A DNA stretch of 64,000 bases from Kordia periserrulae (GTDB lineage: Bacteria; Bacteroidota; Bacteroidia; Flavobacteriales; Flavobacteriaceae). Shown here piece after piece: positions 6,997-39,453 of the stretch. How positions within the stretch are numbered: position 1 is the first letter of the stretch; every line of letters starts with the position of its first letter. Under the pieces are notes generated by a model. The model saw nothing but the letters and a program-made list of their open reading frames with translations. It was not told where the DNA came from and ran no database searches. The stretch covers positions 806,001-870,000 of the forward strand of contig NZ_QBKT01000001.1 in assembly GCF_003054265.1 (NCBI RefSeq). The letters run 5' to 3'. The translations under genes and the position numbers were made by a program.

Positions 6997-7001
6997 TTGA
7001 T

Positions 7002-14326: not shown

Positions 14327-14941
14327 ATGAGTCAATTAAATTTTGGTGTTTTTAATGATTTTTGGGATAAAAATCCTAATCACTTGCCATTTTTAAGTTT
14401 GCACTATTTACCTAATATTTCAGAAGGTTGGGGTTTGTATCAAAGTATCGAAAAGCTTGATGTAATTATTGAAGAAAATGACTTATCTGGAATAATAGAA
14501 GGGATAAAACTTTTATTAAAAAGTGAAAATTGGCGACCGCATTTGGTAGCTTCATTAGCGATTTTAAAAATAAAAAAAGACGAGCAAATAAAACTTAAAT
14601 CGTTATTGTGGGAACGAATAAGAAAAGGTTCATGGGTAAGTCCTCAAATACTTGTTATTTTGTCAATTATCGATATTGACTTTAAAAAAATTGCGAAAGA
14701 AATATACGAAAATGGATTCCAAATAGTCTATTCAAAAATGTCATCTGTAGAACATCATTCAGCAAGAGGTCCAGCAGGGTTGCATGTTGATAATCAAAAG
14801 GTCATTGCTTCGGTAGAATATTTATTGCATGGTACAATTAATGACTCATTTGAAAATGATTGTGGCGGTTCAATTACAAAATCATGGAAAAAGAATTTAA
14901 TGGATTTAATAGAAAATAATAAGTTTACAATAAAGTCATGA
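14327..14941 (+). CDS. Hypothetical protein, HEAT-like helical
   Basis: A 204-residue protein, predominantly alpha-helical by residue pattern, with an ADxL-like middle (HLVASLAILKIKKDEQIKLKSLL as a helix pair; given here only as a feature, not a family match). No signal peptide or membrane segment. I do not recognise the family. The coding sequence looks more AT-rich than the flanking kinase and hydrolase genes, like the orphan at 16099-16674. It begins 46 bases after the response regulator but is probably not functionally part of that operon. Confidence 0.55.
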   Translation: MSQLNFGVFNDFWDKNPNHLPFLSLHYLPNISEGWGLYQSIEKLDVIIEENDLSGIIEGIKLLLKSENWRPHLVASLAILKIKKDEQIKLKSLLWERIRKGSWVSPQILVILSIIDIDFKKIAKEIYENGFQIVYSKMSSVEHHSARGPAGLHVDNQKVIASVEYLLHGTINDSFENDCGGSITKSWKKNLMDLIENNKFTIKS

Positions 14942-15013
14942 TGAGTTCAATAGTAGATAATAATTAAACTTCATTGTTCAATCAAATTATAAAACCCTAT
15001 TTTCGTCTCCATC

Positions 15014-16102
15014 ATGCCAAAAAAACTAAAACTCATCCTTATCAACCTATTGGTTCTTGTGATTGGAATTCTAATCATAGAACTCAGTTTTGGCGGTTGG
15101 TTGAGCAGTAGCAATCAGTTGAGCAACTTAGGAATTATCAAAGATGCCAAATTCGAATTTGAAGTTGGTGATTTGTACATGACCAAAACGCCTACAATAA
15201 CCTACACACGTGATGCATACGGATTGCGCGGCATCGCAACGTTTAATCAACCTGAAAAAATAGACATTTTAACCGTTGGCGGAAGCACGACCGATCAACG
15301 CTATCTGGACGATTCGCAAACTTGGCAAGAAGCGTTGCAACGTGAATTTCAAAAAAACGGAAAAGACATCTATGTTTCCAACGCTGGCGTTGACGGACAA
15401 TCAACCTACGGACATTTAAAAAGTACGGAAATTTGGTTTCCGAAAATTGAAAACTTGCAGCCTAAAGTCATTCTATATTATGTCGGAATCAACGATTTTT
15501 ACAGAGTCAATAGCGATGCCAAATACGATGACATTCAGCAAGTGAACAGCGGCGGATTCAAACAAAAAATCAAAGACAATTCTGCGTTGTATAGTGTATA
15601 TCGAAAGCTTCGAGGCATGCAACAAGCAACCAAATTTGAAGTCGGACATCGCAATATTGATTTTTCACGCGTGCATTACACCAAAGAAGAAATTTTAAAT
15701 GAAAAACTGCTAGAAATCTATGATGAAACCAATCTCAAAGCGTTTAAAACCCGCATTCAAAAACTAATAGACTACGCAAAAGGAATCAACGCAATTCCAA
15801 TATTCGTTACGCAACCAACCATGCATTACAAAATCAGAAATGGTGTGATTTTCGGAACGGAATCGACTAACTATTTAGAAGAAAAATACGCGTACAATGG
15901 TGTTGGGTATTTAACACTTCTCAACAAACTCAATCAAGCCATGAAAGAAGTCGCAGGCGAAGCGTCAGTCATCGATTTAACCAACGACGAAGACTGGAAT
16001 ATTATGGACTTTTACGATTATTTTCACAATACTCCAACAGGTGCCAAAAAAGTTGGGCAGAAAATGTATGAGAAACTTTTCCAACTCGGAGTTTTAAAGT
16101 GA
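15014..16102 (+). CDS. Membrane-anchored SGNH/GDSL-family hydrolase
   Basis: A 362-residue protein with an N-terminal hydrophobic anchor (LILINLLVLVIGILIIELSF). The SGNH blocks are in order: nucleophile Ser in TVGGSTTD, a Gly block around NAGVDGQSTYGHL, the GxND block YYVGIND, and the catalytic Asp/His pair in FYDYFHNTPTG near the C-terminus. Such enzymes are usually esterases, for example acetyl-hydrolases acting on glycans or lipids. The following glycosyltransferase-type genes suggest a cell-envelope glycan substrate, which is inference. The stop codon overlaps the GTG start of the next gene. Confidence 0.85.
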   Translation: MPKKLKLILINLLVLVIGILIIELSFGGWLSSSNQLSNLGIIKDAKFEFEVGDLYMTKTPTITYTRDAYGLRGIATFNQPEKIDILTVGGSTTDQRYLDDSQTWQEALQREFQKNGKDIYVSNAGVDGQSTYGHLKSTEIWFPKIENLQPKVILYYVGINDFYRVNSDAKYDDIQQVNSGGFKQKIKDNSALYSVYRKLRGMQQATKFEVGHRNIDFSRVHYTKEEILNEKLLEIYDETNLKAFKTRIQKLIDYAKGINAIPIFVTQPTMHYKIRNGVIFGTESTNYLEEKYAYNGVGYLTLLNKLNQAMKEVAGEASVIDLTNDEDWNIMDFYDYFHNTPTGAKKVGQKMYEKLFQLGVLK

Positions 16103-16674
16103 AGAATAGCAAAGAAATACCAAAGTTTAAAAGTGCTTTTCCTAGAACTTTACTTGTAGAAATTGAAGGGATAATTTCAAATATTAATATTACAACAAAA
16201 CATGTAGCGTCTAGGGATTTTACAATCTTTCTTAAAGGAGAAAAAATTGAAATACCTTATCGAATTTATTGGGAAGTATCAACATTATCTGAAGATACAT
16301 TGAATGATATTCAAAAGTTAATACTTGCCTGTATCCTAACACGGCATCACAATGGATTTATACGTGAAGAAAATCTAAACAAATTATTTTCATCTGATGC
16401 ATATTGGACAATTCCTTTTATTATACAACTTACAGGAGAATACGTTGTTGAAATACTTGAATTCATTTTTGAGAATTTTGATTTGCTTGATAAACAAAAC
16501 GTTCTCCGATTTATTCTAGAAAATAAATCATATTGGCAGAAAACAAAACAAAGAATAGCTAGTTATTGGAATTGTTACTATCGTTATGGTAAAAACTCAA
16601 AAAAGGGTAATTACGTAGGATTCAGGTTGATAGAAAAAATAGAAAGTTTGGAAGTTGAAAATATTGAATTTTAA
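16099..16674 (+). CDS. Hypothetical protein, GTG start overlapping the hydrolase stop
   Basis: A 191-residue soluble protein of unknown function. The GTG start at 16099 overlaps the TGA stop of the hydrolase gene, suggesting coupled translation; a later in-frame start cannot be excluded. The second half looks helical (WTIPFIIQL, YVVEILEFIFENFDLL). The C-terminus is rich in Lys, Tyr and Trp. It appears more AT-rich than the hydrolase it follows. I see no catalytic motif. Confidence 0.5.
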   Translation: MKNSKEIPKFKSAFPRTLLVEIEGIISNINITTKHVASRDFTIFLKGEKIEIPYRIYWEVSTLSEDTLNDIQKLILACILTRHHNGFIREENLNKLFSSDAYWTIPFIIQLTGEYVVEILEFIFENFDLLDKQNVLRFILENKSYWQKTKQRIASYWNCYYRYGKNSKKGNYVGFRLIEKIESLEVENIEF

Positions 16675-16944
16675 ATGCTGAATTAAAACATTGGTACACT
16701 TTCAAATTATCAAATTTACACATTAAAACAAACCGTCACTTCGAGTGAAATCTTGAAAAGATTTTGTATCGAGAAGTACTAGGAAACTAAATGTTTTCAA
16801 AGTATTTCTCGATACTTTTTTCTTTCATTTCGACAGGCTCAATGTGAAGAAAAACATTCGAAGTGACGTTTTGTACAACTTAATCGCCAACATTGAAAAC
16901 CAACTCAACAGCCAAAACCAAAAAAATTAAATACTTTTACCAAA
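16675..16944. other. Intergenic region with dispersed repeat
   Basis: No gene is seen. It contains a dispersed A/T-rich motif starting ACATTGGTACACTTTC (about 16687-16732) followed by an inverted-repeat element (16734-16868, separate entry). Confidence 0.6.
16734..16868. repeat. Dispersed palindromic repeat, about 135 bp
   Basis: The ends are inverted copies, CGTCACTTCGAGTG at the left and CATTCGAAGTGACG at the right. A nested TATCGAGAAGTACT / AGTATTTCTCGATAC inverted pair lies inside. Related copies occur at 43566-43678 and, as half-elements, at 51677-51720 and 51802-51857. No protein is encoded. Confidence 0.75.
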
Positions 16945-18234
16945 ATGAAAACAGTGAAGTGGTTTCAACAAAAAAGTAATCTGACAATAGGAATTGTATT
17001 CCTCGCGGCTTTTATATGGGTACTTTTACAGCCTGTTGTGCACTATCCAGATTCGGCAGGTTATCTTGAAATGCACATCATTCGCACGCCTGGTTATCCG
17101 CTATTTCTTCAAATTATACAAAGCGTATTTGGTGAACATTATGAAATTGGGATTGTTAGCATTCAGTTTTTATTCGGTTGTTTTGGGATATATTATTTCA
17201 TTCAAAAATTACGATTATACAAGATAATTAATGGTTTTTTTAGCATCTGTTTGGCAATTGTGTTGTTGCTTCCTTATGTTACAGGATTAAAAATTGCAAA
17301 CAATATACTTACAGAATCCATTTCGTATAGTTTATACCTAATTATTGTGGCGAAATTCATTTCGTTCTTTCTCTCAAAAAACACAAAAGAACTGTATTTT
17401 TCGCTTCCAATTTTGGCTTTGTTGCTCATCACGCGCTATCAATTTATCTACTTAATTCCGATTGCCTTGGGATTGCTATTTTGGGTAAGTTACGTTCAAA
17501 AAACACTTAAAAAACAGTTGCTTTTAATAGCATTATATATCACGCTTCCGCTGATGACTTCTCTCATCGACAGAACGTATCACAAAGCAGTTCACGGACA
17601 TTTTGTAAGTACACCGTGGACGGGAATGAACATGATAACGCTGCCTTTTTTTGTGTCGGATGCGGAAGATGCAACACTTTTTGACGATTCCACCGAAAAA
17701 AAATTTTTCCAAAATACCCATCACGATTTGGTGGCTTCACAAATGAATATCAACAATTTTGATACTACTGTTTTTCCGAATCCAACACAATTTTACATAG
17801 GACGATTTGCTGATATTACGATGGGACCGATTTACAAAAATGGTGTCGCAGTTTTGGATAAAACACTTTCGGAAAACGAAAAATTCATCGCATTGGATCA
17901 AATGACGTCCAAAATGACCAAGCCATTGTTGTTGGAAAATTTTTCAAAGTGGAAACGTATCTACATCAAAAATGCGATACACGGTTTTGGCGGTTTCAAA
18001 TACATGTTGTTATATCTGCTGATATCATTTTACAGCATATATATGTTGTTAAAACGCAATGAAAATAGTTATAAAGTCTTAGGACTGCTTTCGGGGTTGC
18101 TCATTGCGAATGTGCTTATTGTTGCGATTGGCATGCACGCCGTGGTTCGCTTTACTTTTTACAACGATTGGGTATTATTCCTCACGATTTTTGTATTATT
18201 GACTTCGCTTAACAAAAAACGGTATGAATCCTGA
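16945..18234 (+). CDS. Polytopic membrane protein, probable GT-C-type glycosyltransferase
   Basis: A 429-residue protein with about ten transmembrane helices. Near the N-terminus YPDSAGYLEM followed by RTPGYPLFLQ matches the acidic first-loop motif and R-x-PGYP of polyprenyl-phosphate-sugar-dependent GT-C enzymes. A long periplasmic loop (about 205-340) precedes the last helices. It is not assignable to a defined GT family by eye. The 3' end overlaps the start of the GT2 gene by 11 bases, so the two are likely co-expressed: the GT2 could charge a lipid carrier and this protein transfer the sugar. That division of labour is inference. Confidence 0.6.
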   Translation: MKTVKWFQQKSNLTIGIVFLAAFIWVLLQPVVHYPDSAGYLEMHIIRTPGYPLFLQIIQSVFGEHYEIGIVSIQFLFGCFGIYYFIQKLRLYKIINGFFSICLAIVLLLPYVTGLKIANNILTESISYSLYLIIVAKFISFFLSKNTKELYFSLPILALLLITRYQFIYLIPIALGLLFWVSYVQKTLKKQLLLIALYITLPLMTSLIDRTYHKAVHGHFVSTPWTGMNMITLPFFVSDAEDATLFDDSTEKKFFQNTHHDLVASQMNINNFDTTVFPNPTQFYIGRFADITMGPIYKNGVAVLDKTLSENEKFIALDQMTSKMTKPLLLENFSKWKRIYIKNAIHGFGGFKYMLLYLLISFYSIYMLLKRNENSYKVLGLLSGLLIANVLIVAIGMHAVVRFTFYNDWVLFLTIFVLLTSLNKKRYES

Positions 18235-19387
18235 ATTATCTGTCGTAATGCCTTGCCTAAATGAAGCAGAAACTTTGGAAATCTGCATCAAAAAAGCACA
18301 CGATTTCTTTGAAAAACATCAAGTTGCTGGAGAAGTGGTGATTGCTGATAATGGAAGCACCGATGGCTCTCAGGAAATTGCAAAACGATTGAACGCTCGT
18401 GTCGTTCCAGTAGCCGAAAAAGGCTATGGAAACGCACTCAAAGGCGGCATCAAAGCAGCGAAAGGAACCTATATTATTATGGGCGATGCGGATGACAGTT
18501 ACGATTTTTCGAAGTTGGAATTGTTCTTAGAAAAGCTTCGCGAAGGTTACGACTTAGTGATGGGAAATCGTTTTAAAGGCGGCGTTAAAAAAGGAGCGAT
18601 GCCTTTTTTGCATAAATACTTAGGAAATCCGGTATTGTCGTTTATTGGACGGTTGTTTTTTAATATTAAAATTGGTGATTTCCACTGCGGATTGCGAGGC
18701 TTTTCCAAAGAAGCCTTCTACAAAATGGAGGTCAATACCACAGGAATGGAATTTGCCTCAGAAATGATAGTAAAATCCAAACTCAACGGATTGACGATTA
18801 CGGAAGTTCCCACCATTTTACATCCAGATGGACGTTCGCGTCCGCCACACTTAAACACTTGGCGCGATGGTTGGCGACACCTACGGTTTTTACTGCTCTA
18901 CAGTCCGCGTTGGCTGTTTTTATATCCTGCATTTTTGTTAATCATTGTAGGAACTATTGTATCTGCACTTTTAATTGTAAAACCACTTCAATTCAACGGA
19001 ATCATCTTTGATGTACACACGCTTTTATACACAGCAAGTGCGGTCATCATCGGATTTCAATTTTTGATGTTTTACGGATTGACGAAGATTTTTGCGGTAG
19101 AAAACGGCTTGCTTCCCAAAAGCAATCGCTACACCAAATTGTTCAAGTTTTTTACCCTAGAAAAAGGATTGATTGTCGGTTTTCTAACCTTTGCGTTGGG
19201 AATCTATTTGAGTATTTCAGGATTTTTAGATTGGAAAGCGACAAGTTTTAGCGATTTAAAACCAGCGGAAACTTTACGCATTATTGTTCCTGCGGTGTTT
19301 ACCATCATGCTGGGATTGCAAATCATACTCTTTAGTTTCTTCTTTAGTATTTTGGGATTGAAGCAGCATATTAAAGAAGATAGCTAA
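18224..19387 (+). CDS. Family 2 glycosyltransferase, DPM1/dolichol-P-mannose-synthase-like, with membrane tail
   Basis: A 387-residue protein. The N-terminal GT-A domain (about 1-230) begins LSVVMPCLNEAETLE, continues with VIADNGSTDGS, and has the DxD-type motif MGDADDSYDF. MGNRFKGG and HCGLRGF are typical of the undecaprenyl/dolichyl-phosphate sugar synthase branch. About four C-terminal transmembrane helices follow (about 235-385). It presumably transfers a sugar from a nucleotide donor to polyprenyl phosphate at the inner face of the membrane. It overlaps the upstream GT-C-like gene. The sugar is not predictable. Confidence 0.85.
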   Translation: MNPELSVVMPCLNEAETLEICIKKAHDFFEKHQVAGEVVIADNGSTDGSQEIAKRLNARVVPVAEKGYGNALKGGIKAAKGTYIIMGDADDSYDFSKLELFLEKLREGYDLVMGNRFKGGVKKGAMPFLHKYLGNPVLSFIGRLFFNIKIGDFHCGLRGFSKEAFYKMEVNTTGMEFASEMIVKSKLNGLTITEVPTILHPDGRSRPPHLNTWRDGWRHLRFLLLYSPRWLFLYPAFLLIIVGTIVSALLIVKPLQFNGIIFDVHTLLYTASAVIIGFQFLMFYGLTKIFAVENGLLPKSNRYTKLFKFFTLEKGLIVGFLTFALGIYLSISGFLDWKATSFSDLKPAETLRIIVPAVFTIMLGLQIILFSFFFSILGLKQHIKEDS

Positions 19388-19482
19388 TAACCTTTATTTG
19401 CCATAATTTCTACTAAATGTGATTAAGTAAAAGAATTTAGTATAGATGCTAAATTCGTGAATCGATACACTAGCGAGTAAAG

Positions 19483-20157
19483 TTATATGGTTTTTGTTTG
19501 TATCACACTCACAAACTGATACTTTCCTTTAAAAATATACTTCACCAATGGTAAATGATTGTACAAATAGATTGGACAAATACGTTTGACTTCTTGCAAT
19601 TGTTGGTTCTCTAAAATAGCTTGAAAACTTTTTTGGGTAAAATAGCGCTTCGGAATGGAAACACCGTAGCCGTAATTCCCGATGATGTCTGCCAATTGGA
19701 GCAACGTTCTGGAGAAAAAACCGTATTCGAAATGATCTTTAATAATGATAAAATTGGCCACACGTTTCGCTTCTTGCAACAACCGATTTCTATTTTCGAC
19801 ATCGTGATGCAAAACATCGCTAAACAAAACCACATGAAAAGAAGCATCTGGAAAAGGCAGCGTTTTTCCATCAAAAGCAACATAATTTTTCCAATCTTTT
19901 GTGTTTGGGTAAATATCTACGCCAGTACCTTCAATATTGTGTCCTTTTTCAGAAATAATAGTGGTGATGGTCATATCGCCACAACCAATATCCAATAAAC
20001 GAATAGGACTTTTAGCAGCAACAGGCAACTGTTCAATTTCTTCTATAAAAAGCGAACTTAAAAGCGTAATTCGATGGCTGTGCGATGTTTTTTTATGAAA
20101 TCGAATCAGCAACTTATCGAAGAAACTTTTTTTATCTTTTGCTAGTGGAGAACTCAT
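19483..20157 (-). CDS. SAM-dependent class I methyltransferase
   Basis: The methyltransferase core has LLDIGCGDMTITT (motif I), a GVDIYP acidic post-I strand, LPFPDASFHVVLFSDVLHH (motifs II-III) and EAKRVANFIIIKDH. I start it at 20157 (MSSPLAKDKKSFF, giving about 224 residues). The open frame extends upstream to 20271, but those 38 residues look non-conserved and start inside AT-rich DNA. The substrate is unknown. It is convergent with the GT2 gene and divergent from the peptide-modification locus at 20673, so it could belong to either neighbourhood or to neither. Confidence 0.8.
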   Translation of the reverse strand: MSSPLAKDKKSFFDKLLIRFHKKTSHSHRITLLSSLFIEEIEQLPVAAKSPIRLLDIGCGDMTITTIISEKGHNIEGTGVDIYPNTKDWKNYVAFDGKTLPFPDASFHVVLFSDVLHHDVENRNRLLQEAKRVANFIIIKDHFEYGFFSRTLLQLADIIGNYGYGVSIPKRYFTQKSFQAILENQQLQEVKRICPIYLYNHLPLVKYIFKGKYQFVSVIQTKTI

Positions 20158-20672
20158 GAATGTGTCAATAAGCAGTAAAGGTACTAAATCTGTACTAGAG
20201 ATGTTCAAATCACACAAAAAGTAAGATATGAGTGTAAGGTTGTATTTATTTTTGCGACAAAATGCATCCAATTTTTTTCTTCACTAGAATCTTGCCTTTG
20301 AAATAACAAGAAAAAACACATAAAACAAGTTGTAATATCTTAAAAAACTTAGCATTACTTCACGTTTTTTTGATATCTTTTTTATAAAAAAATCATAAAT
20401 TTTCAAAAATTATTTCTTACAAATACAAGTCGTAAAATATGTTAAAATTTAAGAATGTTTGTCAGCAAAAAATCACCTATTTGTGCATAATTCAGCAGTT
20501 TGACAGAAAAATACGTCGTTAAAATTTTAATAAGATTGTATGTAAATGTTATAAAAAATATGTGAAAATTTTTGGATTATTTCAGTAAAATCGTTAAACA
20601 CTTAAAATAAATGTAGGATTTTTGTGTTATTGTTAGTAATATAGTATTGAACAAATTACACTATAAAATCGT
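20158..20672. other. AT-rich upstream region of the peptide locus
   Basis: About 515 bp between divergent genes. It is strongly AT-rich, with several T-tracts and only near-matches to TAnnTTTG (for example AATGTTTG near 20454 and AATTTTTG near 20567). I find no convincing gene. A 28-codon frame from about 20439 looks random. It presumably carries the promoter of the 20673 gene. Confidence 0.5.
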
Positions 20673-21809
20673 ATGGCTGAGTTATTAGAAAAAGACGCAA
20701 TCATTTCAGATATCAATGAAAAAATCAATACGGTAAAGATTTTACTGTATAAAGAAGCGCCGCATATTTTTGAGAAAATCGACTTTGACAACGATGAAAT
20801 TTTCTGTAGCCCTTTGTTATTTGCTTTTTTTAGACATAAAGTAATTAATACGTTTACGCCTGAAGAAGAAAAAGCGTTGCTAGAAGAATTTATGCAAGGC
20901 TATTATGTAGAAAAGCCTGAAACCTATAGCATAACACATTTATACAACGAAGAAGGAATTGCCTATATGCCAAGTGTTGGCTATTTTAAAAAGGGAGAAA
21001 ACACACCTTTTGCACCAACGGCATACGTTAAAGATTCTTCCGTAAAAATTCTGCGCTGTGCTACACCTTTTTTAAAAGTTATTTTAGACATACCGCTTGA
21101 AGATCAACAATGGGATGACGAATTGTACAACAATCGTATTGGGCAATTGAACAACGCAATGGATTTGATCCGAAAAAATGTTCCAGACCAATACAAATTG
21201 ATTGACCAATGTTGCGAGTATATTTATTTGTTCAACACAGATCCAAACAATTCCAATTCGTTTGCTAGTGGAAATGCGCTTGGATTGGCTTTTTTTAATG
21301 TTTATCAAGAAGAATACAACGAAATATTTTTCATCGACGACATTGCGCATCAAACAGGACATGTGATTATGAACAACTTGATGTTTAGCAAACCTACGTT
21401 CTACAAAATTGACCAAACGCAAGCTGTAGAAGAAATTCTGGGCAGACCAGATCATCGAAATGTCAACATCTTAATTCACGCTTTATACACATATTACACC
21501 ACATTTTATTGCTTAGACGAATGCATCACTGCAAATAGTTTTGAGGGAAAACTATACAAAGAAGCAGTGGCACGTATCGGATTTTACCAACGAAAGTGTC
21601 ACACCGATTTGCAAATACTGGATGTAGTCATTAAACATTTTGGCGGACTCGAAAATATGTTGACTGATAAAGGATTGAAGGTAATGAAATCCATTACCAA
21701 CAAATTTGAAGAAATTACACAAAAATGGGGAGAAACTATCAACGCGTACGATTTCTCGAACCAAACTTACAATTTCAGTTTCAAACTATTTGAAGAACTG
21801 AATCCATGA
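20673..21809 (+). CDS. Putative RiPP-modifying protein, HQTGH variant of the HEXXH peptide-modification family
   Basis: A 378-residue soluble protein without signal peptide. The motif H226-Q-T-G-H230 lies in IDDIAHQTGHVIMNN, and R258-P-D260-H-R262 lies in ILGRPDHRNVNIL, about 28 residues later. An HxxxH helix followed by RxDxR and a hydrophobic helix is the pattern I associate with the HEXXH motif putative peptide-modification domain found beside RiPP precursors. The usual Glu is Gln here. I recall reports that relatives are 2-oxoglutarate-dependent peptide beta-hydroxylases, unverified here. It is paralogous to the protein at 22206-23345 along the whole length and lies 103 bases before the GG-leader precursor. 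Enzyme assignment is moderate; involvement with the precursor is strongly suggested by context. Confidence 0.65.
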   Translation: MAELLEKDAIISDINEKINTVKILLYKEAPHIFEKIDFDNDEIFCSPLLFAFFRHKVINTFTPEEEKALLEEFMQGYYVEKPETYSITHLYNEEGIAYMPSVGYFKKGENTPFAPTAYVKDSSVKILRCATPFLKVILDIPLEDQQWDDELYNNRIGQLNNAMDLIRKNVPDQYKLIDQCCEYIYLFNTDPNNSNSFASGNALGLAFFNVYQEEYNEIFFIDDIAHQTGHVIMNNLMFSKPTFYKIDQTQAVEEILGRPDHRNVNILIHALYTYYTTFYCLDECITANSFEGKLYKEAVARIGFYQRKCHTDLQILDVVIKHFGGLENMLTDKGLKVMKSITNKFEEITQKWGETINAYDFSNQTYNFSFKLFEELNP

Positions 21810-21838
21810 AAAAAATAAGATTGAAAAATCTGAAAAAC

Positions 21839-21854
21839 ATTTGTGCGCACAAAT
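21839..21854. promoter_or_regulatory. Perfect 16-bp palindrome before the precursor gene
   Basis: ATTTGTGC GCACAAAT is a perfect palindrome, 29 bases after the stop of the HQTGH gene and 58 bases before the precursor ATG. It could be an operator for an independent precursor promoter or an mRNA hairpin marking a processing site. No T-run follows, so it is not a terminator. Confidence 0.5.
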
Positions 21855-21912
21855 AGGCGAAAACCGAAAAGCCTTAGAAAGAGTAGGTAAAACAACCTTT
21901 AAATTTAATATT

Positions 21913-22089
21913 ATGAGTAAATTATCATTCGCAGAATTAGCAAAAAAAGCTGATGCAATCGTATCAAACGAATTGTTAAACACTATTGCTGGAGGTGTAT
22001 CAGAACCATTTAGTGATTGTCATACTGACGACTGCCACTACGCTGTAGCTTCTGCACCATCTAGTCCATTAGACACAAGAAGCAAGTAA
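21913..22089 (+). CDS. GG-leader precursor peptide (candidate RiPP)
   Basis: 58 residues. The leader is MSKLSFAELAKKADAIVSNE followed by LLNTIAGG (residues 1-28), the amphipathic leader with double-Gly end typical of Bacteroidota natural-product precursors exported or cleaved after GG. The predicted core (residues 29-58) is short, acidic and His-containing, with a DCH-TD-DCH near-repeat giving Cys36 and Cys41, then a Ser/Pro/Ala tail. I chose the ATG at 21913. The frame runs 24 codons further upstream, but those residues are charged, lack leader character and include the palindrome. It is flanked by two paralogous modification-type proteins, and a strong terminator follows at once. No transporter is nearby. 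Product chemistry is unknown. Confidence 0.8.
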   Translation: MSKLSFAELAKKADAIVSNELLNTIAGGVSEPFSDCHTDDCHYAVASAPSSPLDTRSK

Positions 22090-22125
22090 TAATTTTTTAG
22101 TTGTATAACTAAAATTAAACTACAA

Positions 22126-22176
22126 AAGCAGAGATTTGATACACACTTTAGTGTTATCAATCTCTGCTTATTTTTC
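22126..22176 (+). terminator. Terminator/attenuator between precursor and second paralog
   Basis: A long stem (AAGCAGAGATTTGATA paired with TATCAATCTCTGCTT, interrupted by one bulge) with a short ACACACTTTAGTGT-type tip is followed by ATTTTTCT. It ends 30 bases before the next start codon. Such an element would let the precursor be made in excess over the downstream genes. Confidence 0.75.
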
Positions 22177-22205
22177 TACCAAAATTGATCTCGTAATACA
22201 AAAAT

Positions 22206-23345
22206 ATGCTTACCAAATTACTACCCATAAAACAAAATGCACTAGCGGATATTGTTAGAATTCTCATCTACAAAGAAGATGCTTCGCTGCTAACAAAAGT
22301 CAATCTGGAAGACGACCACGTGTTTTTAGAACCCTTGCTCATGGCGTATTTTAACAAAGCACAAACTGAAAAATCCTTTCCAGAAGGAATGTTGCCCGCG
22401 CTATTACAAGGATTTTTTTTGGAAGCAGAAATCATTGCTACGGATGTACTTTGCAATACAAATGATATCGCGTATGTTCCCGAAAAAGGATATTATAAAA
22501 AAGGAGCAACTTCACCATTTGAAGGTGTTCACATTATTCCAGAAACGACGGTTGAAGTCTTAAAATATGAAGTGCCGCTGCTGCGGAATGTGATTCATAT
22601 TGTGTCCAAACGCGATCCTATTGCAGAAAACGATTTGGTGATGAATACTTCGCTATTTGATCATAACATTACGCCGTTAACCAATGCTTTTCAACATCTA
22701 AAAAAGAACAATTCAGATTTTTATAATTTGATAGATTTGTGTGTGAAAAAATGTGCGTTCTACAAACTCATCGGTCGCTACAGTCGCTCGTTTGCTTCCA
22801 TCAACGCCAATGGCACTATTTATTTTGCGATTCCCGATGGAAAAGATGCAGAAGACGAAGTCTATTTTTTAGACATGATAGGATTTTTTACGGGGAAAAT
22901 GCTGCATACCACCTTATTTCACAAGCAAGAAGAACTCTTTAAAATCAATCACCGAACGCGAACTACCGAAATTGTGGAAACAGAAGAGCATCGCAATATA
23001 TATACGTTGTACAACAATACATTTTGCAATGTGATGGCGTGTGTAAGTTTGGAAAGTTGTGTAACATCCGATACATTTTCAGAACAGCAGCAGCAAGATG
23101 CAAAAGCACGTATGGCGTTGTATCTTAAAAAATACCAAGTAGACAGTCAAAAATTGGAAGCAGTCATTGCACATTTTTCAGGAATCGAAAATGTATTTGT
23201 AAAAGATGGCATTCAGATTTATCATTTTATGACCAATCATGCAAACCGAATTTTGGAAAACCATGAAGATATACTTGATGATTTTGATTTTTCAAATTTT
23301 CACTATCGAATGGAATATCCTGAATTCTCAAAAATAAATTCATAA
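22206..23345 (+). CDS. Paralog of the HQTGH protein lacking both metal-ligand histidines
   Basis: 379 residues, collinear with the protein at 20673-21809. Shared landmarks include xGYxKKGxxxPF near residue 100, FxxLDMI / FFIDDI, EHRNIYTLYNN opposite DHRNVNILIHA, and a common C-terminal segment IxHFxGxENxxxxxG. At the metal site I-A-H-Q-T-G-H becomes I-G-F-F-T-G-K: F227 and K231 replace both histidines, and the RxDxR arginine and Asp are E-x-E-H-R here. It is therefore probably non-catalytic, acting as a substrate-binding or scaffold partner. Degenerate metallohydrolase-like domains are known in RiPP enzymes such as FxsB. It is followed closely by a lipoprotein gene. Confidence 0.7.
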   Translation: MLTKLLPIKQNALADIVRILIYKEDASLLTKVNLEDDHVFLEPLLMAYFNKAQTEKSFPEGMLPALLQGFFLEAEIIATDVLCNTNDIAYVPEKGYYKKGATSPFEGVHIIPETTVEVLKYEVPLLRNVIHIVSKRDPIAENDLVMNTSLFDHNITPLTNAFQHLKKNNSDFYNLIDLCVKKCAFYKLIGRYSRSFASINANGTIYFAIPDGKDAEDEVYFLDMIGFFTGKMLHTTLFHKQEELFKINHRTRTTEIVETEEHRNIYTLYNNTFCNVMACVSLESCVTSDTFSEQQQQDAKARMALYLKKYQVDSQKLEAVIAHFSGIENVFVKDGIQIYHFMTNHANRILENHEDILDDFDFSNFHYRMEYPEFSKINS

Positions 23346-23373
23346 CATTCGTAAAATACCTGCCAAAACAACC

Positions 23374-23889
23374 ATGAAAGCGAACAAAACCTACATATAT
23401 ATAGCGCTACTTTTGGTGTTTCTGAGTTGTAATTCCAAAAAAGAAACAGAAGTCACGCAAAAACCTGAATATCTAGACGATATTGGCGACACCACATTCA
23501 ATCCAGCACTTGACAACGCCAATTTCAAATTTTGCGATTCCACCAACGTACTTCATAAAAGAGCTAGCGTTGCCTACACAGGTGGCATTACAGCCATGGA
23601 AAAAGAATTGATAAAAAAGTATAAAAAACAACCTGCATTTGAATCGTTTACAGGCTACTTTTTTATTCGTTTTGCGGTAAACTGTAACAATGAATCTGGA
23701 CGATTCCGTTGGGAAATCGTTGATGAAGAATTTAAAGAAACAAGCTGCCCCAAAGCGCTGGAAGAGGAAATCATTTCTACCGTTAAAAGTCTACAGCAGT
23801 GGAATTACCCAATTTACAGAGGAAAAAGTTACGACGGATATACGTTTATCATTGTAAAACTAAAAAACGGAAACATTCTACGCTCATGA
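23374..23889 (+). CDS. Lipoprotein with TonB-C-like domain, first member of a duplicated pair
   Basis: 171 residues. The lipoprotein signal has its lipobox at VFLSC. The C-terminal half (FFIRFAVNCNNESGRFRWEI ... LQQWNYPIYRGKSYDGYTFI) resembles the beta-alpha-beta fold of TonB C-terminal-like domains, but there is no energy-transducing TM or Pro-rich region. It overlaps the downstream TPR gene by 4 bases (ATGA). The same pair order recurs at 54501-55953, where the lipoprotein has the matching segment IRFVINCKGEAGRY. The function is unknown. It lies 28 bases after the pseudoenzyme gene, so it may be co-transcribed with the peptide locus. Confidence 0.7.
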   Translation: MKANKTYIYIALLLVFLSCNSKKETEVTQKPEYLDDIGDTTFNPALDNANFKFCDSTNVLHKRASVAYTGGITAMEKELIKKYKKQPAFESFTGYFFIRFAVNCNNESGRFRWEIVDEEFKETSCPKALEEEIISTVKSLQQWNYPIYRGKSYDGYTFIIVKLKNGNILRS

Positions 23890-24704
23890 AAAAAATACTC
23901 TTTACACTAGGATGCTTTTGCACGACTTTACTATTCAGTCAAGGAAATTGTTTATTATATCCTGAAGGAAGCGACGCGCGAAAAGCATGTGAACTTGCCT
24001 ATGAAGGGAAAAGTTTAAAACAAGGCAGCAGAGAATCGCAAGAAATGTTTGATTCCATTCTCAAACTCAATCCGGAATACGATTGGGCATACATGGAAAA
24101 ATCGGTAGCGTATTTAAAACGCGGACTTATTGTAGAAGGGTTGGAATTGCTCGACAAAGCTGTGGAATTGGAACCGAGATACAATCTTCCGTACAGAGCC
24201 TATTGGCACTTTCAAAACAGAAACTACAAACTTTGCATTCGCGATTTGGAACGCTATTACAAACTGCCAAACGCATTTATATACGAACTCACACCAGGTG
24301 GCGATAAAGACATGCGACTCTTATTAGCGATGTCGTATGCCAAAGAAGGAAATCTGCAAAAAGGCATAGAAACGGTGCAAAACTGTCTTAAAAGTTACAA
24401 ACGCGAATCTGATTTTGGCTTGGTCGATTATCATATTTTAGGCATGCTGTACGTAAAAAATAAGCAATACAAAAAAGCGTTGGAAGCATTTGACAAACAA
24501 CTCAAAATGACGGAAGATTATCCCGATTCCTATTACTATATGGGATTGGCGTACAAAGCGTTAAACAAACCAAAAGAAGCCAAAATGCATTTCGAAAAAG
24601 CCAAAGATAAATTCTTAGACGATTCTCATATTCGTAACGGATATTTATGTTATAAAGTGTATTATTCGGATGTGCTTGATGAAATTGACGCGCTTTCGGA
24701 GTAA
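23886..24704 (+). CDS. Secreted TPR protein, second member of the duplicated pair
   Basis: I start it at the ATG at 23886 (MKKILFTLGCFCTTLLFSQ, a clear signal peptide; 272 residues). The open frame begins at 23799, but the extra N-terminus would bury the signal peptide. At least four TPR-like units follow: AYLKRGLIVEGLELLDKAVELEPRY-type (about residues 65-95), IETVQNCLKSYK, YVKNKQYKKALEAFDKQLKM and YYYMGLAYKALNKPKEAKMHFEKA. It probably acts in the periplasm or at the surface as a protein-interaction scaffold for the lipoprotein whose gene overlaps it. Paralog at 55012-55953. Confidence 0.75.
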   Translation: MKKILFTLGCFCTTLLFSQGNCLLYPEGSDARKACELAYEGKSLKQGSRESQEMFDSILKLNPEYDWAYMEKSVAYLKRGLIVEGLELLDKAVELEPRYNLPYRAYWHFQNRNYKLCIRDLERYYKLPNAFIYELTPGGDKDMRLLLAMSYAKEGNLQKGIETVQNCLKSYKRESDFGLVDYHILGMLYVKNKQYKKALEAFDKQLKMTEDYPDSYYYMGLAYKALNKPKEAKMHFEKAKDKFLDDSHIRNGYLCYKVYYSDVLDEIDALSE

Positions 24705-24799
24705 TGCATACTTAAAAGAAGCATACTACTTCTCAACAAAAAGCTAAAGTTTATAGAAAATCAAATTCTTTTCAGAACTTTACAAAAAAAATTGTTTGT

Positions 24800-25399
24800 A
24801 TGAATTCAGCAGAAACAAAAGCGTATTGGTCGCAGCGTTACCAAGAAGAACGTACAGGTTGGGATATTGGTTCGCCTTCTACACCGTTAAAAGAATATAT
24901 TGATCAACTATCTAATAAAAACCTTAAAATTTTAATTCCAGGCGCAGGAAATGCCTATGAAGCCGAATATTTATGGCAACAAGGATTTTCAAATGTGTAT
25001 ATTTTAGATATTTCCAAACTTCCGCTAGAAGCTTTCCAACAACGAAATCCTGATTTTCCTGCGGAACAATTGCTTTGTGAAGACTTTTTTGAGCATACTG
25101 GAACCTACGATTTAATTTTAGAACAAACCTTTTTCTGTTCGTTTCCGCCATTCCCAGAAACCCGAAAAAAGTACGCAAAACACATGACGCAACTCTTAAA
25201 ACCGCAAGGGAAATTAGCAGGTTTGTGGTTTTCATTTCCGTTGACGGATGATGTGGAAAATCCACCATTTGGCGGAAGCAAAGAAGAATATCTCAACTAT
25301 TTTGAACCGTATTTTAACGTGAAGGTTTTAGAAAAAGCACACAATTCCATTCCGCCGCGCGCAGGCAACGAACTCTTTGGGATTTTTGAAAAAAGTTAA
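24800..25399 (+). CDS. TPMT-family thiol/thiopurine S-methyltransferase-like protein
   Basis: 199 residues. The N-terminus YWSQRYQEERTGWDIGSPS matches the W-xxR-Yx-gxxxWd-G-P opening of TPMT-family enzymes. Then come LIPGAGNAYEAEYLWQQGF (SAM-binding motif I variant), LDISKLPLEAF (acidic strand end), LILEQTFFCSFPPFPE and a C-terminal RAGNELFGIFEK. Bacteroidota members are usually annotated as SAM-dependent methyltransferases that detoxify small thiols or metalloids such as Te and Se, so the substrate is not assured. The gene is monocistronic in appearance. Confidence 0.8.
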   Translation: MNSAETKAYWSQRYQEERTGWDIGSPSTPLKEYIDQLSNKNLKILIPGAGNAYEAEYLWQQGFSNVYILDISKLPLEAFQQRNPDFPAEQLLCEDFFEHTGTYDLILEQTFFCSFPPFPETRKKYAKHMTQLLKPQGKLAGLWFSFPLTDDVENPPFGGSKEEYLNYFEPYFNVKVLEKAHNSIPPRAGNELFGIFEKS

Positions 25400-25483
25400 A
25401 TACTGTTAAAAAAAGAAAGGTGTTTGAATTTATTCGACAAATTCAGCAATCAAATAAAAAACTAACTTTAAGCCTTCACTGTT

Positions 25484-26290
25484 TTGAAAAAAACACTATT
25501 CTCATTTGTGCTTTGTGCACTATTTTTAAGTTTCACTTCGTGCGATTCTGAAAAGAAATCAACTCCTGAAACAACGCCAACTGTTTCTGAAACTTCTCAA
25601 AAAGAAACTCCAAAAACGGATAAAGCGTCACAAATTCTTCAAGAAACCATCAAAGCACATGGTGGCGATTTGTATGAGAATGCACACTATCAATTTGTAT
25701 TTCGAGATAAAACATATACGTTCAAAAACAACGGAAATAAGTTCACCTATACAGTAGAAAGTACGAAAGATGGTGACCAAACAATGGACGTTTTAGAAAA
25801 CGGAGTCTTTTCACGCCAAGTGAACAATCAAACCATTACACTTTCTGAAAAAAAGGAAAACAGTGCCAAAGGTGCTATCAATTCCGTGATTTATTTTGCA
25901 ACATTACCACACAAACTCAATGATGCTGCCGTAAATGTGAGTTTTATAGAAGAAACAGCTATCAAAGACAAAAAATACGATGTGTTAAAAGTGACCTTTA
26001 ATCAAAATGGCGGCGGCGAAGATTTTGAAGATGAATACCATTATTGGGTGAATCAAGAAACGAAAAAGATTGATTATTTAGCCTATAACTATCAAGTCAA
26101 TGGTGGCGGCGTTCGTTTTAGAAGTGCCTATAATGTGCGAGTTGTGGATGGAATTACCTTTCAAGATTACATCAATTACAAAGCAGAAGTTGGTACGCCA
26201 TTAACGGATTTGCCAGCGTTGTATGAGCAAGGAAAACTCAAAGAACTTTCAAAAATAGAAACAGAAAACATAACTAATTTAACTCAATAA
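25484..26290 (+). CDS. Lipoprotein, DUF6503-like
   Basis: 268 residues from a TTG start at 25484; no upstream ATG precedes the signal peptide. The lipoprotein signal is FLSFTSC, and a low-complexity Ser/Thr/Pro/Lys linker follows (to about residue 48). The rest is a beta-rich domain (AHGGDLYENAHYQFVFRD ... VDGITFQDYINYK), resembling the outer-membrane-lipoprotein-like DUF6503 proteins common in Flavobacteriia. Function unknown. Two bases separate it from the next gene, so the two form an operon. Confidence 0.7.
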   Translation: MKKTLFSFVLCALFLSFTSCDSEKKSTPETTPTVSETSQKETPKTDKASQILQETIKAHGGDLYENAHYQFVFRDKTYTFKNNGNKFTYTVESTKDGDQTMDVLENGVFSRQVNNQTITLSEKKENSAKGAINSVIYFATLPHKLNDAAVNVSFIEETAIKDKKYDVLKVTFNQNGGGEDFEDEYHYWVNQETKKIDYLAYNYQVNGGGVRFRSAYNVRVVDGITFQDYINYKAEVGTPLTDLPALYEQGKLKELSKIETENITNLTQ

Positions 26291-26292
26291 CC

Positions 26293-26868
26293 ATGAAAAA
26301 AATCATTATGATGTTGGCATTTTTTGCCGCTGTAAGTACCGTAAATGCTCAAGATTTTCCAAAAGCAGATAAAAGTCCGACCGACATTGCACATTATCCA
26401 ACAAACGCAGCCAAAAGAGCTTTTGCAAAAACAGACGCTCAGAAAAAAGCGTTGGAACCAAAAATCAGAGTCATTTATGCGCGACCTTTTAAGAAAGGAA
26501 GAAACGTTTTTGGCGAATTGTTAAAATTTGGAAAAGCATGGAGAGTCGGTGCCAACGAATCTACCGAAATTTTATTCATGACCGATGTGATGGTGGGCGA
26601 TACCAAGGTAAAAGCAGGTCGTTATTCGGTAATCATTGTTCCAAATGAAGATTCGTGGACCTTACATATAAATTCAGAAAATGACGGTTGGGGAAATTAC
26701 TCGTATGATGCTTCTAAAGACGTAGCGAGTATTACTGTACCCACACAAAAAAGCGATACCGAAATTGAGCAACTATCCATTGTACTATACGAAAAAAGCG
26801 AAAACGTAGTACACTTAAAAATCGGTTGGGACACGACTATTGCTGAGTTTCCAATTACGCTAAAATAA
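26293..26868 (+). CDS. Secreted DUF2911 protein
   Basis: 191 residues with a signal peptide (MKKIIMMLAFFAAVSTVNAQ). The core matches DUF2911: RPFKKGRNVFGELLKFGKAW, then RVGANESTEI, VKAGRYSVIIVPNEDSW, and the C-terminal IGWDTTIAEFPI. The family is frequent in Bacteroidota envelopes and has no assigned activity. Its 3' end overlaps a truncated recombinase gene on the other strand by 14 bases. Confidence 0.85.
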   Translation: MKKIIMMLAFFAAVSTVNAQDFPKADKSPTDIAHYPTNAAKRAFAKTDAQKKALEPKIRVIYARPFKKGRNVFGELLKFGKAWRVGANESTEILFMTDVMVGDTKVKAGRYSVIIVPNEDSWTLHINSENDGWGNYSYDASKDVASITVPTQKSDTEIEQLSIVLYEKSENVVHLKIGWDTTIAEFPITLK

Positions 26869-27361
26869 TACCAAAGAAGCGATTAATTATATCTAGTTTT
26901 CTCTCTTTAATTAGCATAAAGCTTACAAGATCATTCTTAACATAGTAAAACTTATTCCAAGTAGATTGTTTTAGATCAATTCCTATAAGGCTTTTAAGCT
27001 CCTCTAAGTAGCTTTCAAAACATTCTACAGTATGATATTCTTTTTCTAATTTCTCTCCTTTATAGAGCTTATAAACATCTTCAACGGTAAAATCTTTCTC
27101 TTGAATTTGGAGTATTAAAAAAGCCTGATTAATAGCATTACTAATCAGGCTTAATTGTTTGTTTGAGAACTCAGATTTTTCAAAAGAGTCTAGTATTTTC
27201 TGTTTTCTACTATTCCAATATTTAGGACTCACAAATAGTCCTGTATTAAATGCTTTTCTTTTTTTGTTATATGTTATTCTACATCTTATAGGACAGAGTC
27301 CTTTACTGTTAATTTCACCCTTGCTGAGTACAAATAATATATGGATTTTCATGGTTTTCAC
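26855..27361 (-). pseudogene. Tyrosine recombinase/integrase, N-terminal fragment
   Basis: 168 residues. The N-terminal arm-binding domain (HILFVLSKGEINSKGLCPIR, then NTGLFVSPKYWNSRKQKIL) and the start of a SAM-like core-binding domain (TVECFESYLEELKSLI ... WNKFYYVKNDL) match Bacteroidota phage-integrase-type tyrosine recombinases. The catalytic domain with the R..HxxR..Y residues, which should add about 220 residues, is absent. The frame runs into the DUF2911 gene end instead. The fragment lies about 190 bp from tRNA-Asn, a common integration target, so it looks like the remnant of an excised or decayed island. Confidence 0.8.
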
Positions 27362-27514
27362 GTTTTTTTAAAATGGGTGTCTTCTCTATTTTGATGGGTG
27401 TCTTTTTGGGTACCTTTTTTTGAATAATTATTCAGTAATATCAAAAAAAAGGAAATGCTATAAAATAGTCCAAAAAACTTGGAAAGTTGGCGAATTCACA
27501 AGAAGTATGGGCAC

Positions 27515-27543
27515 AAAAAAAGCCACCCTAATGGATGGCTTTT
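27515..27543 (-). terminator. Terminator downstream of tRNA-Asn
   Basis: On the minus strand AGCCATCC ... GGGTGGCT forms a short stem with one mismatch, followed by seven T. It begins about 10 bases after the tRNA 3' end. Confidence 0.65.
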
Positions 27544-27553
27544 GAAAGCTTTG

Positions 27554-27627
27554 CTCCCCCTCTTGGGCTCGAACCAAGGACCCTTTGATTAACAGTCAAA
27601 TGCTCTAACCAACTGAGCTAAGGAGGA
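27554..27627 (-). tRNA. tRNA-Asn (GTT)
   Basis: 74 nt, cloverleaf read by eye. The acceptor TCCTCCT pairs with AGGGGGA (one T-G wobble), discriminator G. D-arm AGCTCAGTTGGTTAGAGC, anticodon loop CTGTTAA with anticodon GTT, T-arm TTGGTTCGAGCCCAAG. The 3' CCA is not encoded, as is usual in Bacteroidota. Lies next to a truncated integrase. Confidence 0.95.
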
Positions 27628-27736
27628 GTGTTATTGCTTTTTGCGAGGGCAAATATAAGGCTATTTTTTTTTCCAACAAATAAATTTTTTAAAAAATTAA
27701 AAAACTTTTAAAATTCGTTGTGACACTTTGGTTTTA

Positions 27737-29062
27737 CTAGCCTTTTATAAGATTCCAAATGTCATTTCCGAAGATAACCACCATCAAACTCATGATGATT
27801 ACAAAGCCTACAATTTGTCCAATTTCCATCACTTTTTGCGATGGCGCTTTTCCAACGATGATTTCATACAATAAAAACATCACATGACCTCCATCTAAGG
27901 CAGGAATTGGTAGAATGTTTAAAAAGGCCAACCATACCGAAAACATTGCCATAAAGCCCCAAAAGAATTCCCAATTCCATGATGCTGGCATCATTTCAAC
28001 AATTCCAATCGGCCCTTTTACCTTTTCATATCCTTTTATGATAGGATTGAAAATTAATTTGAATTGCTTTACTTGACGTACTAATACGTTCACGGTTTCT
28101 TCTAAACCTCTCGGAATAGATTCAAAAAATCCATATTCTTTGGTGACGATTAAACGCTCTCTTGCTTCTCTACTATTCAATCCTACGCCAATAGTTGCAC
28201 TGTCGGTAACTTGTACAGGAAGCATTAATTCGCTACCATCTCTTTTTAATGTGATTGTTACTTCTTTACTAGAATTTGCTTTTATTTTTGTTACAAATTC
28301 ATCCCAAAATTGGACTTTACTACCATTTACTGCCAGAATTTCATCATTAGTTAGCAATCCAGCTTCTCTGGCATTTGTTTTTGTCGTATCTACCGTAATA
28401 ACAGGTGCAAAACGTGGTGTCACAAAGTTTCTTCCTTGACTGTCCAATGCTGCTTTTTTTCCTTCATCACTCAATGGAAATGTTACTTCTTTTCCATCAC
28501 GCAATACAGTCATTTCATCGCCTAAGAGAATATCAATAGATAAGTATTTGTCTAGTTTTTCTACTTTATCGCCGTCAATTTTTAAAATTTTATCGCCCGT
28601 ACGCAATCCAATTTTTTCACTGATTTCATCTACATAAATTCCATCCTTAATTTGGTCAACAGGAATGTACGATTCTCCATAATAATTAAATAAAGAAACA
28701 TAAATCACCCAAGCCAATAAAAAATTCACAATAACACCACCTAACATGATAATTAAGCGTTGCCAAGCTGGTTTGGAGCGGAATTCCCAAGGTTGTGGCG
28801 GTTTTTCCATTTGTTCCTTGTCCATGCTTTCATCAATCATTCCTGCAATTTTCACATATCCACCTAATGGAAGCCAGCCAATTCCGTACACAGTATCTCC
28901 TATTTTCTTTTTTACGATAGAAAACCAAGGATCAAAAAATAAGTAGAATTTTTCAACTTTCGTTTTAAAAAGTTTTGCTGGTATAAAATGCCCCAATTCG
29001 TGAAGAATCACTAAAATCGATATGATTAGAACAAACGATGTAATCTGAATAAATACTCCCAT
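27737..29062 (-). CDS. rseP: RIP metalloprotease RseP (site-2 protease)
   Basis: 441-residue M50 intramembrane protease. The zinc motif H21-E-L-G-H25 lies in the first TM helix, and the second catalytic segment NILPIPALDGGH is in a C-terminal helix. Two PDZ-like domains lie between (SEKIGLRTGDKILKIDGDKV and NAREAGLLTNDEILAVNGSKV). RseP cleaves membrane anti-sigma factors and leftover signal peptides in the plasma membrane. Length and architecture are normal, and it appears monocistronic. The adjacent regions hold no anti-sigma gene, as is typical for Bacteroidota. Confidence 0.95.
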   Translation of the reverse strand: MGVFIQITSFVLIISILVILHELGHFIPAKLFKTKVEKFYLFFDPWFSIVKKKIGDTVYGIGWLPLGGYVKIAGMIDESMDKEQMEKPPQPWEFRSKPAWQRLIIMLGGVIVNFLLAWVIYVSLFNYYGESYIPVDQIKDGIYVDEISEKIGLRTGDKILKIDGDKVEKLDKYLSIDILLGDEMTVLRDGKEVTFPLSDEGKKAALDSQGRNFVTPRFAPVITVDTTKTNAREAGLLTNDEILAVNGSKVQFWDEFVTKIKANSSKEVTITLKRDGSELMLPVQVTDSATIGVGLNSREARERLIVTKEYGFFESIPRGLEETVNVLVRQVKQFKLIFNPIIKGYEKVKGPIGIVEMMPASWNWEFFWGFMAMFSVWLAFLNILPIPALDGGHVMFLLYEIIVGKAPSQKVMEIGQIVGFVIIMSLMVVIFGNDIWNLIKG

Positions 29063-38567: not shown

Positions 38568-38640
38568 GATTCGTGCAGTATAATTGGAGAAAATAAGTTC
38601 TATGTAATCTTGAAAGTCGATGGTTGTTTAGTTTAGAGAA

Positions 38641-39378: not shown

Positions 39379-39453
39379 TATTTTTTAGGTGTTGGGTTTT
39401 AGGTTTTAGGTTTTCTTTGAAAAATCTCAATACTCAATTCTCCTAACTCACTA

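Follow-up and report, generated by a model that had tools for sequence, protein, structure and literature searches.

In a 64,000-nucleotide stretch of the Kordia periserrulae genome (contig NZ_QBKT01000001.1, positions 806,001 to 870,000; henceforth the window), a block of genes at 20673–24704 codes for a protein that we call A, a small precursor peptide with a double-glycine (GG) leader, a paralog of A termed B, a lipoprotein and a tetratricopeptide repeat (TPR) protein, in this order and throughout on the plus strand. We propose, with a probability of about 0.62, that this cluster makes a ribosomally synthesized and post-translationally modified peptide (RiPP), in which A is an oxygenase acting at a Cys-His pair of the precursor, with subsequent cleavage at the GG and export of the core. 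The new element that our comparisons suggest is a sister branch of the alpha-ketoglutarate (alphaKG)-dependent HExxH enzymes at work in RiPP biosynthesis. The original prediction, made from the window alone, had described a candidate RiPP locus with a 58-residue GG-leader precursor between paralogs of 378 and 379 residues, and a lipoprotein and a TPR protein closely downstream. The open reading frames (ORFs) bear out this layout, with A and B sharing 30% identity over almost their entire length, and the RiPP interpretation is strengthened by the GG-leader Cys-His peptide found at 22 of 22 A loci. This recurrence of enzyme and peptide elsewhere in the Bacteroidota suggests a family of peptide natural products.

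We searched whole genomes for A, counting the K. periserrulae genome in each set, and recovered matches in 5 of 299 genomes of the family, 3 of 11 of the genus, 7 of 395 of the order and 5 of 395 of the class. A further search found A in 10 of 173 genomes from the genus of genome G403, which belongs to the same order; the genome sets overlap. Stretches of ~14–19 kb around the matches, together with the window, yielded 22 A loci in 21 genomes, spanning four families by genome label. This count takes in L043, with a decayed A and a peptide ORF that starts late at a TTG, as well as L021, whose A is broken into two reading frames; left out are the distant L046 and L047, which come without a GG-CH peptide, and the fragmentary L083 (46 residues, E = 9.2e-4). 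The loci are not independent: four come from three Kordia genomes, and the precursors of L079–L081 are identical. Beyond cellular genomes, 115 pattern matches in viral contigs included none related to A, and plasmids gave one partial, weak match each for the L047 and L042 proteins.

A leader-like peptide with a Cys-His pair 4–9 residues past the GG is present at every one of the 22 loci (26 peptides in total), the nearest lying within 1 kb of A at 17 of them and within 3 kb at 21; at L045 the distance is 5.1 kb. Counted over all places with an A match, a GG-leader peptide accompanies 22 of 25. No GG-leader Cys-His peptide was found at L046, L083 or L047, the last of which sits on a contig of only 3,413 bases, its surroundings being mostly unseen. 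The small ORFs at the loci were chosen by size, presence of GG and lack of overlap with a large ORF. Across 28 loci, 27 of 173 GG-containing small ORFs (25–110 aa) have a CH within 14 residues past the GG; all but one of these are the 26 leader-like peptides of the A loci, the exception being a chance ORF of 25 aa. In the reversed sequences of the same 28 loci, which served as a control, a CH follows the GG in 2 of 214 GG ORFs. By this sequence count, GG-CH peptides at A loci exceed chance; the small-ORF lists also include GG ORFs that have no CH, e.g., at L020 and L039.

When 17 peptides of the 15 loci examined first were aligned, with rows picked by eye after the motif had already been seen in the earliest ones, the sole invariant columns were G27, G28, C36 and H37. 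The leader follows the consensus MxKLSLxxLKxxA...ExLxxIxGG, and the rest of the core is variable in composition and length, that of L044 having just 8 residues (ALAACHPA). Most aligned cores feature a single Cys-His, and a CHxxxCH core characterizes the clade of Kordia and L019, to which the window precursor belongs with its two pairs (C36-H37 and C41-H42). None of the 17 precursors found a convincing family in NCBIfam, the best match being to an unrelated family at E = 0.027, with TIGR04149 matched by one of 17 at 0.11. As far as sequence can tell, an encoded precursor with conserved leader and core stands beside a putative modifying enzyme at 22 of 22 loci, as expected of a RiPP system. The K. 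periserrulae genome holds one precursor of this type, its sole other match (E = 1.06) lying in an unrelated-looking 99-aa ORF, and A and B are its only proteins of their family at E 0.001. A shares 88% identity with a copy in K. aestuariivivens and 82% with one in an uncultured Kordia.

Profile and fold comparisons indicate that A is homologous to the alphaKG-HExxH family (TIGR04267), and A probably works like the enzymes of that family. A matches TIGR04267 with 19.6 bits (E = 7.1e-4); in a set of ten proteins, L044 scored 31.0 bits (E = 2.3e-7), L045 20.9, L039 11.9 and the distant L047 54.8, the other six having no match. Among the relatives scored, a set without L076–L082, L047 is the only one over the cut-off of 40 bits; the K. 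periserrulae genome has no protein over it, and a scan of 247 genomes of the class gave two matches, one in the L046 genome and one in the L047 genome. In turn, a profile built from eight A proteins matches L046 (3.8e-20) and L047 (1.1e-11), and when a profile of 13 A proteins was compared with one of L046/L047, the match reached 97.7% at E = 1.4e-12. L047 aligns weakly (E = 0.1) with ChlH (Protein Data Bank (PDB) 8s5f), with HExxH, Arg and His-Ala coinciding; via this weak alignment, H226, H230, R262 and H269 of A correspond to ChlH. The top four PDB matches of an AlphaFold2 model of A are all to the HExxH domain of ChlH in 8s5f (E = 1.2e-5 to 7.8e-5, probability 1.00), followed by SjiH-Ni (22ob, E = 0.011) and by proteases at 0.039 or worse. 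As modeled, A shows the ChlH fold, and its sequence has the His pair, the Arg and the further His.

The predicted HQTGH followed by RPDHR is indeed present in A, at residues 226–230 and 258–262, with H226, H230, H269 and R262 forming the putative site. Over 21 A sequences, H226 and H230 are conserved in all, H269 in 19 and R262 in 16. The motif reads HQxxH in 17 of the 21 copies and HExxH in four, the four Glu copies constituting one clade. A lies below the curated TIGR04267 cut-off and has no HExxH motif, the two marks of membership in that family. We call it a divergent sister branch rather than a member because of the HQxxH in 17 of 21 copies and the score below the cut-off. The original description of two HEXXH-like proteins is accordingly right about relationship, in the profile similarity and in 8s5f as the best fold match, and right about a motif in A, if in the HQxxH form, but it does not apply to B, whose corresponding columns read FFTGK. 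The two conditions that the prediction had named for its refutation, absence of profile or structural similarity and homologs mostly without a GG-leader peptide, were both checked, and both outcomes speak for it. At L041 (8186–9835) no stop codon separates the A frame from that of a lipoprotein-like relative of the protein at 23374–23889, an apparent fusion.

B is present at four loci, three of them in Kordia; the fourth, L019, belongs to a different genus within the family. In the tree the B proteins group as a single clade (100/100) nested among the A proteins, on a long branch of uncertain placement. H230 and H269 are lost in all four B proteins and H226 in three, and R262 is kept in four of four. 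The window B has no TIGR04267 match; its model (mean pLDDT 58.8) has ChlH as best match at E = 3.5e-4, the A and B models sharing the same six Kordia sequences as their basis. The residue losses point to B being probably a pseudo-enzyme. The loci with B are the loci whose precursor has CHxxxCH, which, coming from one clade, is a single observation; the coincidence suggests that B helps with the second Cys-His pair.

We then counted the neighboring genes over the 22 loci (phmmer, E 1e-4). TPR proteins are found at 19 loci, HlyD at 14, a C39-peptidase ATP-binding cassette (ABC) exporter at 13 (split into two ORFs at L076), the lipoprotein at nine, a CARME methyltransferase at seven, and a second methyltransferase, an aldo-keto reductase and a CPBP/Rce1-like protein at six each, the last rising to seven with a Pfam match in L022. 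None of these genes was detected by the same search at L046 and L047. The earlier remark that no exporter lies nearby is right for the window, where no C39-ABC protein stands beside A, but the counts make this a local feature and not the rule. Related exporters occur elsewhere in the K. periserrulae genome: one at G000:C7, with confirmed C39 and ABC domains, is 55% identical to the L019 exporter and adjoins HlyD; GG peptides and a Lant_dehydr_C protein are encoded in the same region. A second Cys-His locus of K. aestuariivivens, L023, comes with an exporter of its own.

The CARME protein of L044 (4859–6325) has a C-terminal PqqD domain, the leader-binding fold used by many RiPP enzymes, and is a candidate leader-guided histidine methyltransferase on the strength of this domain architecture. 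Carnosine methyltransferases act on the His of a His-containing dipeptide; by analogy, the CARME-like enzymes at seven loci hint at His as the target. The TPR protein is a candidate immunity or periplasmic handling protein.

Two RNA elements flank the precursor gene. A DUF805b RNA (RF02914, Rfam type Cis-reg) ends 23 bases ahead of its ATG, and such RNAs score over gathering just upstream of a Cys-His precursor in the window and at L024, L025, L044, L079, L080 and L081. Four further loci (L019, L021, L023 and L082) have a looser form of the pattern there; in this pattern search the start was misplaced for 2 of 26 peptides (L076 and the second of L078). The K. periserrulae genome holds 17 DUF805b RNAs over gathering, against none in 14 control genomes. 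DUF805b is possibly a shared switch of secreted-peptide genes, and our search of the accessible literature found no paper on the motif. As a separate observation, nine of 23 pattern-confirmed sites, some below score, precede small peptides that by eye have a GG/AG-type leader; the RNAs of this genome also precede lipoprotein-like and other genes, mostly 15–30 bases before the ATG. Behind the precursor, the segment 22090–22205 with a hairpin and T-run folds with a z-score of −5.39, none of 200 shuffles being as stable. From its position and predicted fold, this hairpin would give precursor in excess of B.

Gene order, family relationship, the conservation of leader and core, the residues lost from B and the exporter gene in trans are read directly from the sequences; from these elements we infer the following course. 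A would be a non-haem iron, probably alphaKG-dependent, oxygenase, binding iron via H226, H230 and perhaps H269, and alphaKG via R262. It would recognize the conserved leader of the precursor and oxidize the core at Cys-His, the likeliest reaction being hydroxylation of a beta-carbon, with His favored as the site since carnosine methyltransferases act on the His of their dipeptide. B, a presumptively dead duplicate, would probably serve as a partner, e.g., in binding the doubled Cys-His core. Cleavage at Gly-Gly would then free the core for export through a C39-peptidase ABC transporter, which in K. periserrulae would act in trans, a candidate being that at G000:C7. The exported lipoprotein/TPR pair may confer immunity or handle the product in the periplasm, and the RNA motif ahead of the precursor and the hairpin behind it may set precursor expression.

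Several observations weigh against this proposal. First, in the profile searches the score of A is less than half the TIGR04267 cut-off, the profile is matched at all by 3 of 12 A and B proteins, L041 and L042 have a true HExxH yet no match, and PDB sequence and profile searches with A missed ChlH (with A, B and A/B alignments they returned no useful relative). Second, the site is not uniform: the window motif is HQTGH and not HExxH, R262 is replaced by Gly in five of 21 copies (L022 and the four HExxH copies), and the third His by Asn in L019 and Tyr in L082. Third, the model is weak, with a mean pLDDT of 56.1 (~70–88 over much of residues 150–360) and TM-scores to 8s5f of just 0.39–0.47. Fourth, the sequence surrounding the three Kordia A+B loci, L021 and L079–L082 shows no exporter, and DUF805b is over gathering at only 7 of the 22 loci, all of which were scanned.

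The proposed system shares features with several known ones and differs from each. GG-leader RiPPs of Bacteroidota (lanthipeptides and TIGR04149-type peptides) are exported by a C39-ABC protein with an HlyD partner, and the double-Gly leader, exporter and HlyD recur here. In contrast to the lanthipeptides of these bacteria, no dehydratase, cyclase or radical S-adenosylmethionine (SAM) enzyme is found among 15 window proteins scanned with Pfam (14327–29062; 16099–16674 and small ORFs lie outside the scan), and none was noticed by eye elsewhere; the dehydratase or cyclase in cis that defines a lanthipeptide cluster is absent from these proteins. The same scan found no multinuclear non-haem iron-dependent oxidative (MNIO) enzyme. 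The alphaKG-HExxH beta-hydroxylases (TIGR04267/IPR026337: ChlH, BpmH/BipH, PflC/PosC and PesO) resemble A in predicted fold, in the His pair, Arg and downstream His, and in a gene adjoining a leader-type precursor; they differ from this system, with its prevalent HQxxH and sub-cut-off score, in that it combines a GG leader, C39 exporter and Cys-His core, has neither radical SAM nor MNIO enzyme in the scanned proteins, and includes a degenerate B in one clade. According to the published accounts, relatives in this family hydroxylate the beta-carbons of His, Asp, Phe, Gln and Pro (PMC13060819), with ChlH acting on Asp and His, PflC/PosC on Gln and PesO on Pro (PMC12636437, PMC13060819). PflC/PosC of Pseudomonas are likewise stand-alone HEXXH-family enzymes adjoining a precursor; their precursors are described as having NHLP-type leaders, a Gln run and ARMD, in clusters with an MNIO-nitroreductase, and the enzymes are reported also to cut the peptide backbone (PMC12636437). 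Here, instead, GG leaders and Cys-His are found, with a CARME methyltransferase and an aldo-keto reductase at some loci. TldD/TldE also keep the metal motif in one paralog and lose it in the other (PMC12707348), but belong to a different family, A being a predicted oxygenase.

In the accessible portion of the literature on HExxH enzymes and RiPPs, which leaves subscription papers mostly uncovered, we found no GG-leader/Cys-His peptides, HQxxH enzymes or Bacteroidota clusters of this kind; cluster surveys of Flavobacteriaceae and Bacteroidetes could hold such clusters unnamed (PMC10734526, PMC9248904). A natural Glu-to-Gln sister branch with 25 further precursors, including the 8-residue core of L044, would offer compact substrates in the search for novel oxidations. 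The A/B pair could serve to examine what a dead paralog might contribute to a peptide-modifying enzyme, and the RNA motif ties a poorly understood regulatory RNA to peptide genes.

Of the other readings, one that is compatible with our proposal is that the core with its modified Cys-His binds metal (as a metallophore or copper/zinc buffer). The analogy is with bufferins, described as MNIO-modified peptides chelating excess copper (PMC12452194). Cys-His is present at every locus, as CHxxxCH in the Kordia/L019 clade, and a ZnuA/ABC-3 type metal uptake operon lies ~11 kb downstream in the window (36104–40368); against this, most aligned cores have a single Cys-His, and the ORF lists, inspected by eye only, revealed no metal-transport or regulator gene recurring beside A. 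We regard this function as possible, if on the unlikely side. A bolder and rather improbable extension is a RiPP class with a modified Cys-His pharmacophore, in which the HQxxH enzymes would go beyond hydroxylation, e.g., to a Cys-S-His thioether or an ovothiol-like thiohistidine, with CARME decoration at some loci, a dead paralog steering A over the two repeats in the B clade, and DUF805b as a shared RiPP switch.

Zincin proteases need the Glu of HExxH as a base, so the Gln in the motif of A, carried by 17 of 21 copies including that of the window, argues against A being a zincin-type metalloprotease (for leader removal or degradation) with B as its inactive partner. Such a role would fit the HExxH-like motif, the zincin-like fold and the metalloproteases among the weak fold matches; TldD/TldE are a known active/inactive pair (PMC12707348), and PflC is hydrolytic on a truncated substrate too (PMC12636437). 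We nevertheless hold it to be quite doubtful, as the ChlH oxygenase leads the fold matches (1.2e-5 versus 0.039 or worse for proteases) and a C39 peptidase-exporter is already available for leader removal at 13 of 22 loci.

A GG leader with a C39 exporter is typical of unmodified class II bacteriocins, and CPBP/Rce1-like proteins, seen at 7 of 22 loci, are often bacteriocin-associated. The peptide might then be an unmodified bacteriocin or signal, with A and B serving in immunity, transport or regulation. This too strikes us as decidedly improbable: apart from the GG, only Cys-His is invariant in the 17 peptides, the other core residues varying; A resembles peptide-modifying oxygenases; and methyltransferases and an aldo-keto reductase occur at 6–7 loci, one methyltransferase with a PqqD domain. 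That A and B are unrelated to an orphan peptide adjoining them by accident is scarcely credible, for although A occurs in just 3 of 11 Kordia genomes, every one of its 22 loci, across four families, also encodes a GG peptide with Cys-His, and the Kordia A-to-TPR DNA is shared only by genomes with A.

Table 1. Features of the A/B locus, in window coordinates
Feature	Position	Strand	Length	Remarks
Gene A	20673–21809	+	378 aa	Diverged HQxxH protein related to the alpha-ketoglutarate-HExxH peptide hydroxylases; putative catalytic enzyme
DUF805b RNA (RF02914)	21854–21889	+		45.0 bits against a gathering threshold of 35.6; in the precursor 5' untranslated region
Precursor peptide	21913–22089	+	58 aa	Leader 1–28 ending in GG (27–28); core of 30 residues
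Stem-loop, then ATTTTT	22126–22169	+		Between precursor and B; probable terminator or attenuator
Gene B	22206–23345	+	379 aa	A paralog, probable pseudo-enzyme partner
Lipoprotein	23374–23889	+	171 aa	Called by eye; Pfam gave no family
TPR protein	23886–24704	+		ATG at 23886, overlapping the lipoprotein gene end; signal-peptide-like N-terminus by eye

Within Kordia, the A-to-TPR DNA is matched at full length only in two other genomes with A, bar short matches to the DUF805b stretch, so the genes of the locus come and go together. An empty site is seen in G301 and G307, with the flank matches ~165 bp and ~94 bp apart, respectively, G307 also lacking the neighboring methyltransferase. In G300 the gap measures ~0.9 kb, and in G179, G302, G304 and G305 the flanks enclose ~5–7 kb of other sequence; given these differing gaps, the place is variable. 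Pfam assigns the ten flanking window proteins (14327–29062) to a glycosyltransferase, methyltransferases, a lipase, unknown families, an Arm DNA-binding fragment and an M50 peptidase, with no RiPP enzyme among them.

The Arm DNA-binding fragment is a 168-aa integrase-like ORF on the minus strand (26855–27361; PF17293, E = 1.7e-14) in which no catalytic domain was found; a transfer RNA gene (27554–27627) adjoins it, ~2 kb downstream of the gene block, and the two are possibly the relic of a mobile island. Elsewhere in the window, two neighboring ORFs at 6610–7823 feature a transposase helix-turn-helix and an rve integrase core, resembling IS3-type elements. A second lipoprotein/TPR pair, related to that of the cluster (phmmer 5e-16 and 1.2e-10), lies at 54501–55953 beside an apparent aspS; considered as a second cluster, it was rejected, having no A homolog and no GG peptide in the list of ORFs of at least 100 aa, which would miss short ones. 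Finally, a lone C39 peptidase domain is found on a lipoprotein-like protein at 35487–36101 on the minus strand (PF03412, E = 7.2e-29), adjoining the ZnuA/ABC-3 operon, an unusual place for a peptidase of the GG-leader type.

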